DNA of 10,051 nucleotides from an uncultured Lachnospiraceae bacterium (GTDB lineage: Bacteria > Bacillota > Clostridia > Lachnospirales > Lachnospiraceae): positions 1 to 10,051 of the forward strand of contig CANQEB010000074.1 in assembly GCA_947594085.1 (NCBI GenBank). The letters run 5' to 3'. Positions 2,593-2,941 of the stretch are shown in pieces (the first letter of the stretch is position 1; each line of letters opens with the position of its first letter). Under the pieces are notes generated by a model. The model worked only from the letters and a program-made list of their open reading frames with translations. It did no database searches and was not told the origin of the DNA. The position numbers were made by a program, and so were the translations under genes.

Positions 2593-2715
2593 TGAGCCAT
2601 GCAAAATCGGCGTAGGACGAAGGAACCATTTATGGTTCCTTTTGTCATTCGTCGATTTTATTTGGCGAAGCCAAACAGCGAGAAAGCGATAGCTTTCGAG
2701 CTGGGGCATGGCTCA
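2593..2715 (+). repeat. Structured repeat copy 1, cloverleaf-like, closed by a 10-bp inverted repeat
   Basis: This is the most complete of three related copies. TGAGCCATGC (2593-2602) and GCATGGCTCA (2706-2715) form a perfect 10-bp closing stem. Inside are three arms with almost no unpaired bases between them. Arm A is AAAATCG/CGATTTT (2603-2609/2653-2659), enclosing the hairpin GGAACC-ATTTAT-GGTTCC. Arm B is TTTGGC-GAA-GCCAAA (2661-2675). Arm C (2676-2703) is CAGC, GA, GAAAGC, loop GATA, GCTTTC, GA, GCTG, with tandem G-A mismatches. The 25 bases at 2638-2662 recur exactly in copy 3. It begins 7 bases after the groEL stop, so it would form the 3' end of groESL mRNA. It has no transposase and I do not recognise its family. 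Confidence 0.85.
2620..2643 (+). terminator. Probable groESL terminator (ATTTAT-loop hairpin in repeat copy 1)
   Basis: AAGGAACC (2620-2627) pairs with GGTTCCTT (2634-2641) across an ATTTAT loop, and TTTT occupies 2640-2643. The T run is short and partly inside the stem, so efficiency is uncertain. It is nevertheless the only terminator-like hairpin close behind groEL. Confidence 0.65.
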
Positions 2716-2755
2716 CAAGTTCAAGCGTACATAACGGATACGCGGCTCAGTAATA

Positions 2756-2820
2756 TGCCGGATGATTCGGCGAATGCCGAACAGCGAGAAAGCGCCAGCT
2801 TTCGAGCGGATGGCACGGCA
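2756..2820 (+). repeat. Structured repeat copy 2, lacking the ATTTAT hairpin
   Basis: This partial copy keeps arm B as TTCGGC-GAAT-GCCGAA (2766-2781) and arm C at 2782-2809: CAGC, GA, GAAAGC, loop GCCA, GCTTTC, GA, GCGG. Bases 2765-2795 are identical to 2878-2908 of copy 3 (31 bases). A short outer stem, TGCCG (2756-2760) with CGGCA (2816-2820), closes it. The ATTTAT hairpin is absent. A GCGTAC at 2725-2730, shared with copy 3, and a small GCGTA/TACGC hairpin (2725-2743) may be diverged remains of the left part, so the left edge is uncertain. Confidence 0.75.
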
Positions 2821-2821
2821 A

Positions 2822-2941
2822 AAAGTATAGGCGTACAAAGGGGCCATTTATGGTCCCTTTTGTCATTCGTCGATTTTATTCGGCGAATGCCGAACAGCGA
2901 GAAAGCGCTAGCTTTCTCGCTGAGCCCCGCCCCGGTACTTT
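2822..2941 (+). repeat. Structured repeat copy 3
   Basis: This copy has the same order of hairpins as copy 1. The first is GGGGCC-ATTTAT-GGTCCC (2840-2857), then TTCGGC-GAAT-GCCGAA (2879-2894). Arm C is a perfect 12-bp stem: CAGCGAGAAAGC (2895-2906), loop GCTA, GCTTTCTCGCTG (2911-2922). An imperfect outer stem is possible: 2822-2831 with 2932-2941 gives eight Watson-Crick pairs, one G-T and one A-G mismatch. Its sequence is unlike the closing stem of copy 1. It starts 2 bases after copy 2 ends, and a promoter begins at its right edge. Confidence 0.82.
2837..2861 (+). terminator. Terminator-like ATTTAT-loop hairpin in repeat copy 3
   Basis: AAAGGGGCC (2837-2845) pairs with GGTCCCTTT (2852-2860), with one G-T pair, across an ATTTAT loop, and TTTT lies at 2858-2861. 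It would back up the copy 1 hairpin for groESL readthrough. Confidence 0.55.

Follow-up and report, generated by a model that had tools for sequence, protein, structure and literature searches.

The window, the whole stretch of 10,051 nucleotides that was analysed, holds the genes groES and groEL as open reading frames 526–858 (likely start 574) and 961–2586. Positions 510–536, upstream of groES, contain the motif TTAGCACTC-N9-GAGTGCTAA, which we take to be a CIRCE-like operator and which suggests that the operon ended by the element described here is probably HrcA-controlled.

Behind the groEL stop codon lies a compact cloverleaf, in which a closing stem encloses three hairpin arms, A, B and C (Table 1). 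The coordinates assigned to it by an earlier, sequence-only reading are exact, and the two strands of the closing stem form a perfect inverted repeat without a mismatch. The RNAfold calculation proposed in that reading returns exactly this cloverleaf as the minimum-energy structure of 2590–2720, with −69.4 kcal/mol as against −33.5 ± 3.3 kcal/mol for 200 dinucleotide shuffles (z −10.8), and none of the shuffles (0/200) equals the native folding energy.

Besides the unit at 2593–2715, the locus contains two more, incomplete units, both of them matches to the covariance model of the family. Because these follow the first cloverleaf, the intergenic region 2587–2960 as a whole folds with a z of −10.7. 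In the third unit, arm A carries a terminator-like hairpin (2837–2860) and arm C is fully paired, with no G-A loop.

The tRNA-like character remarked on earlier extends to the layout only, as neither ARAGORN nor Rfam finds a tRNA in the window. No Rfam 15 family matches the element at gathering scores, in keeping with the earlier failure to recognise a family in it, and a tRNA or a known RNA family has no support from these searches. An encoded protein seems improbable: the open reading frame 2599–2970 spans the hairpins and has nothing in its favour.

Table 1. Features at and behind the 3' end of groEL (positions in the window)
Feature	Position	Strand	Remarks
groEL stop codon	2584–2586	+	ORF 961–2586; closing stem begins 7 bases on
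Closing stem, 5' strand	2593–2602	+	TGAGCCATGC; covarying in the family
Arm A, long hairpin	2603–2659	+	RNAfold; most frequently exchanged arm
Terminator-like hairpin in arm A, with T run	2619–2642	+	GAAGGAACCA-TTTA-TGGTTCCTTT; unreported by a stricter terminator scan
Arm B	2661–2675	+	TTTGGCGAAGCCAAA; most conserved arm
Arm C	2676–2703	+	CAGC-GA-GAAAGC..GCTTTC-GA-GCTG; tandem G-A internal loop
Closing stem, 3' strand	2706–2715	+	GCATGGCTCA; covarying in the family
Second unit, partial, without arm A	2749–2827	+	54.6 bits; arm B 2766–2781, arm C 2782–2809
Third unit	2805–2938	+	56.9 bits; arm B 2879–2894, arm C 2895–2922, closing stem degenerate

Fold and anatomy of the repeat family

BLAST of the stretch over 60 relatives shows that parts of it recur at the groEL 3' end of several congeneric species and at other places, and whole cloverleaf copies were then read from the loci obtained. 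They belong to a family of short (about 120–160 bp), non-coding elements with many dispersed copies. Ten full copies were aligned without regard to structure, and their consensus fold has 34 pairs, of which 21 changed on both sides; all five predicted helices have compensatory changes. Pairing cells amount to 92.6% in this alignment, compared with 76.5% in shuffles and 32–39% in slid versions. The covariation score of 0.465 (0.153 in shuffles) was reached by no shuffle, whereas 7 of 500 attained the native value for further pair types; the structure tested was itself derived from the ten-copy alignment. Homologues that lose the closing stem or the order of the arms had been named as evidence that would speak against the cloverleaf; the claim withstands this challenge because the copies keep both, with compensatory changes.

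The covariance model, also suggested by the sequence-only reading, was built from the ten copies (length 134) and gave many matches in Lachnospiraceae genomes. The three sets of model matches contained 96, 120 and 63 entries, of which 80, 92 and 56 were kept; the entries left out were echoes on the opposite strand, partial units with weaker scores, repeats of loci in an earlier set and L197. There are 210 distinct cores, 205 of them with enough upstream sequence, which reduce to 161 non-redundant sites; 154 sites have enough sequence on both sides.

The typical closing stem reads AGCAATGAGCC(A/G)TGC...GCA(C/T)GGCTCA. Arm A is long, its sequence varies between copies, and 145 of 206 contain CTTG in it. 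In 206 of 210 copies arm B has the form of a GGC-N3/4-GCC hairpin, and its loop starts with GA in 202. The tandem G-A/G-A internal loop of arm C is present in 119 of 206 copies (7/206 after shuffling), including the one at 2593–2715, while many copies without it have that place paired, as in the third unit of the window. The triloop of arm C is GNA in 95 of the 180 hairpins scored. Twenty copies from other genera, picked from the order-level matches, show in our own reading of their minimum-energy folds the same three-arm layout, the closing stem being poor in L375. Three copies, L225, L253 and L224, form a subfamily with a CGAGCC closing stem; L225 is bordered by an outer inverted repeat (TTCGTGTTTAG...CTAAACACGAA), and at the L253 site G034 seems to hold a remnant in reversed orientation.

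Isolated mismatches in the Watson-Crick stems of the 161 non-redundant copies are G-T/T-G in 53 cases and A-C/C-A in 24 (p 0.001). By part, the ratio is 18:4 in arm C, 11:3 in the closing stem (p 0.06) and 24:17 in arm A (not significant), and the 20 order-wide copies give 8:4, numbers that are too few. A protein-binding cruciform was another of the roles suggested in the sequence-only reading. Because G-T mismatches outnumber A-C mismatches in this way, the data argue for selection on the strand as written rather than on a symmetric duplex, which would apply to RNA and single-stranded DNA alike.

At some fixed sites in close species, arms A and C differ as whole modules while the flanks and borders are the same. 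Between L251 and L285 the identity is 1.00 in the flank, 0.62 in arm A and 1.00 in arm C; the corresponding values are 0.98, 0.54 and 0.97 for L226/L275 and 0.98, 1.00 and 0.73 for L252/L284. The arms are the same or nearly so in L229/L279/L290 and in L218/L280. Most such arm A sequences have relatives of at least 0.77 identity at other sites; for arm A of L246, L265, L271, L257 and L258, the best relatives elsewhere reach just 0.60–0.64. Gene conversion between copies via the shared closing stem and arm B would be the simplest reading of these exchanges.

Distribution, sites and apparent mobility

Within the genus, 37 of 47 genomes match the covariance model (E ≤ 0.01), with a maximum of 36 matches per genome. 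In the genome from which the window comes, whose assembly is 71% complete, the model finds 14 matches at E ≤ 5; nine are below 0.001, and three of those are the units of the window. The order contains matches in 69 of 344 genomes, own included, from 37 of 151 genera (E ≤ 1e-5), and the phylum in 4 of 398, again counting the window's genome, every one of them from its family. As few candidates were scored in each genome, both counts are underestimates. The phylum-level search doubles as a false-positive control.

A gapped pattern found at least 119 stretches in a contig collection, and among the 119 listed 116 match the model (77/80 and 39/39). The 80 titles of listed pattern matches name Lachnospiraceae or other Clostridia/Bacillota in 76 cases and other organisms in 4. 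L087, L093 and L155, titled Pseudomonas, Dehalococcoidia and Betaproteobacteria, fail to match the model and are regarded as chance hits; the match of L095, whose title names Methanobrevibacter, scores 57 bits, and this contig is possibly misassigned. A single-site curiosity is ruled out by the genus- and order-wide copies. Nothing was found in phages or plasmids by blastn of 2587–2940, or in IMG/VR with one exact element pattern, and these searches give no sign that a phage, plasmid or virus carries the element.

The 5' border is sharp over the 161 non-redundant sites: 84% have T at −13, and the DNA preceding it is rich in T. Thirty-four of these sites lie directly behind a −10 box. The TATAAT-like box begins exactly 20 bases before TGAGCC at 23 sites and at −18 at 9, other offsets having 0–6. 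Within this class an extended TG is present at 20/34 sites, and 17/34 have at least 4/6 matches to TTGACA at 16–18 spacing (12% expected for random sequence). With a −10 box in this position, transcription would be expected to begin at the element's first bases. The next gene is co-directional at 25 of the 34 sites, as counted by mechanical ORF calling. A second class of 37 sites lies behind T-tracts, and there a hairpin precedes the element at 30 of 36 testable sites, compared with 59 of 800 shuffled controls. The remaining 90 of the 161 sites belong to neither class; an upstream hairpin is found at 21 of them and at 1/34 in the −10 class.

Single copies directly follow stop codons at groEL, L271, L246 and L265, copies L366 and L371 follow tRNA genes, and L361 lies about 40 bases after 6S RNA. 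Judged from such neighbouring motifs, copies often appear to sit exactly at transcript starts and ends.

Several individual sites have features of their own. At L240 (2001–2290, G003), tandem units each have their own −10-like box before them, as if duplicated jointly. Copies L232, L258, L291 and L247 occupy one site, apparently antisense between two operon genes at a start codon, and at L291 the element seems, by eye, to be the source of the upstream gene's TGA stop.

Among the roles considered in the sequence-only reading was a non-autonomous mobile element with terminal inverted repeats. This is largely supported by dispersed copies, presence and absence between relatives and some target duplications, but inverted repeats farther out than the closing stem do not clearly exceed the control: ends of at least 8 bp occur at 4 of 154 sites versus 3.6 expected, one of them of 12 bp (L130). 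With miniature inverted-repeat transposable elements (MITEs) the family shares short, non-coding copies that are numerous and dispersed.

The left and right flanks of 24 copies were joined, and 22 joints (L205 and L206 left out) were searched in seven close genomes, where 16 aligned. The element is missing from at least one relative at 11 of the 16 sites (L267, L221, L228, L231, L270, L272, L269, L286, L253, L283 and L281). At four others (L223, L236, L230 and L288) relatives hold shortened remnants or the element itself, and L204 is ambiguous because 8 bases of a second unit may survive in the relative; some absences may therefore be later deletions.

The clearest junction is that of L228 (G023) compared with the empty allele L319 (G034), where ATTCTTCGT, single in the empty allele, flanks the insertion on each side as a 9-bp duplication. 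At L283 and L281 a −10 box flanks the element on both sides (TGGTATAATCT and GACATGATATAATCT, respectively), and relatives lacking the element at L283, whose loci may be paralogous, retain one such box. Direct flank repeats of at least 10 bp are found at 5 of 154 sites versus 0.4 expected, and of at least 9 bp at 6 of 154 versus 1.0. Apparent target duplications of 9–15 bp are seen in a few copies. The 5' end is constant and the 3' end variable among copies.

No matching pair of ends 300–4000 bases apart, and so no gene-carrying longer version, was found in the element loci scanned, and the genome searches for Y1 transposases and reverse transcriptases brought no mobilising enzyme to light. 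The Y1 (TnpA_REP) transposase is present in 24 of the 47 genus genomes, some of them incomplete assemblies, and has 0 matches in G023, G003, G017, G016 and G011, with 17–36 element matches; its absence from several high-copy genomes speaks against a REP driven by RAYT. A reverse transcriptase is present in 34 of 47 genomes and none was found in G012 (99% complete, 17 element matches) or G025 (92%, 19), which speaks against a reverse transcriptase common to all high-copy genomes.

Two observations concern other sequences of these genomes. Reverse transcriptases with frames of 421–474 amino acids and similar profile coverage occur in a close clade (G000:C181, G034:C91, G068:C18, G069:C11, G023:C132 and G005:C57). 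The right flank of L277 (query 1093–1198) contains a second, unrelated-looking repeat (GACGCCGCAAGAGCCGATGTGCCTG...), present at more than 50 places, among the matches listed mainly in G005, G068 and G069.

A possible groESL terminator and the proposed origin of the cloverleaf

A script for the groEL locus finds TTTT with the hairpins 2619–2642 and 2837–2860; a stricter terminator scan reports none on the + strand here. Thirteen groEL loci were scripted for terminators, of which ten could be delimited. In G017 and G004, which lack the element, the operon ends in a GGGTAAAC...GTTTACCC hairpin, and several others seem to be alike. G002 and G020 have the element and retain this hairpin, and their arm A is not terminator-like. 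Six species (G000, G003, G034, G012, G069 and G023) have the element without the usual hairpin. The T-run hairpin of G000, G003, G034 and G012 is arm A of the first unit; a terminator-like hairpin lies in a later unit in G069, while G023 has none by script and an A-run/T-run hairpin by eye. Where the usual terminator is missing, a terminator-like hairpin is thus found inside the element in five of six species by script and in the sixth by eye. This coincidence makes it about an even chance that the groEL copy has been co-opted as the groESL terminator. The position of the element directly after the groEL stop and the terminator-like hairpins inside it are consistent with the earlier suggestion that the groESL 3' end carries a folded RNA.

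The cloverleaf at 2593–2715 is one of the copies of a widespread and, it appears, mobile repeat of gut Lachnospiraceae with the same four-armed fold. The reading as a whole, an unnamed mobile family of four-way junctions that exchanges its arms and of which one copy has been co-opted as a groESL terminator, is likely. One strand folds into a four-way junction made up of the closing stem, the long variable arm A, the short and near-invariant arm B, and an arm C that in many copies has the tandem G-A loop. Spread would be by transposition in trans into AT-rich DNA that melts easily, such as −10 boxes, T-tracts behind terminators and the 3' ends of genes and tRNAs, and target duplications of about 9–15 bp would arise on insertion. 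Copies, once inserted, could persist, and gene conversion acting through arm B and the conserved closing stem would swap arms A and C between them. The groEL copy would have joined the 3' untranslated region, and its arm A may now stand in for the usual terminator, ending transcription of this heat-shock operon and forming the hairpin at the 3' end of its mRNA. Points that count against this reading are that no mobilising enzyme or gene-carrying longer version was found in the searches described above, that few sites have direct repeats, that the 3' end varies, that relatives hold remnants or the element itself at some aligned sites, that 90 sites fall into neither class, that arms are unchanged at some orthologous sites, and that the stricter scan reports no terminator here.

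A functional class of structured RNA (a 5' or 3' leader or a small RNA), selected at transcript starts and ends, for example as an mRNA-stabilising hairpin or a regulator, with dispersal being secondary, would account for the position at the expected +1 behind sigma70-like promoters with a co-directional next gene (25/34), for the strand-asymmetric wobble (53:24), for the recurring CTTG, GNA and GAAN loops and for the occurrence across the order. It is unlikely in view of the presence and absence between very close species, the remnants, the lack of any single constant partner gene seen and the 275 of 344 order genomes without a match, a number from a limited search that understates presence.

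The constant 5' and variable 3' ends, the varying lengths of the duplications and the placement at promoters and terminators also suit a retro-mobile RNA similar to a bacterial SINE, which the target promoter would transcribe and a reverse transcriptase would copy before insertion into an open transcription bubble. With G012 and G025 carrying 17 and 19 matches and no reverse transcriptase, and with no defined 3' tail, such an RNA is very improbable. An elaborate groESL terminator alone, its cloverleaf made by local tandem duplication of hairpins, fits the tandem units of the window and their terminator-like hairpins, but it is refuted as a complete account because the same cloverleaf is dispersed over many unrelated sites, and it deserves hardly any credence.

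In the mobile-repeat reading, dominant gut bacteria carry a large repeat family that puts a stable four-way junction at promoters and terminators and that could shape the transcript starts and ends of many genes. It would provide a natural experiment in which a fold is conserved with modular exchange of sequence, and a housekeeping operon whose terminator a mobile element seems to have replaced. A bolder proposal, which is speculative and rather doubtful, is that these elements are structured mobile nucleic acids of a new class, which would recognise DNA opened at the start and stop of transcription, insert via the folded four-way junction and swap hairpin arms as cassettes, possibly through an RNA intermediate; with such an intermediate they would be bacterial SINE-like elements.

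Relation to known small repeats

No paper naming the family was found in searches of the open-access literature; supplements, e.g. the motif lists of PMC8040213, may hold it unnamed. The family is not described in the available portions of PMC10969869, PMC2267715, PMC3733652 and PMC8040213. The structured RNAs of Rfam 15 likewise have covarying multi-helix folds, and none of them matches the element. By analogy, elements of the YPAL/ERIC/BOX type would be the closest kind.

RU-1 is the same element as ERIC and is palindromic, and BOX elements are modular. ERIC is enterobacterial and similar in length to the present element, being described, in the text available, as a small mobile intergenic repeat of 127 bp (PMC2759123). 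BOX, RUP and SPRITE of Streptococcus pneumoniae are likewise dispersed small elements, and SPRITE resembles rho-independent terminators according to the portion available of PMC10969869; they belong to another taxon, and the descriptions compared, which are partial, contain no cloverleaf. REP and REPIN sequences with RAYT are likewise dispersed hairpins outside genes, but the element is much longer than the 20–40 bp given for REPs in the available part of PMC3733652, and several high-copy genomes have no Y1 transposase. Bacterial small repeats are described in the accessible part of PMC2229807 as mostly AT-rich and ending in TA, whereas this element shows no TA ends.

The nearest described element, the likeness being one of description, is YPAL/RU-2 of Yersinia. 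According to section 11 of PMC2229807, YPAL is 168 bp long and not AT-rich, has internal inverted repeats, generates target duplications that vary from 3 to 26 bp and uses targets that span or adjoin dyad symmetry; both empty and filled sites are known, and an effect on upstream transcripts is possible. These are the traits shared with the present element, whose own target duplications are putative and which differs from YPAL in occurring in other bacteria and in having a conserved four-way junction, a class of −10-box targets and exchange of arms.
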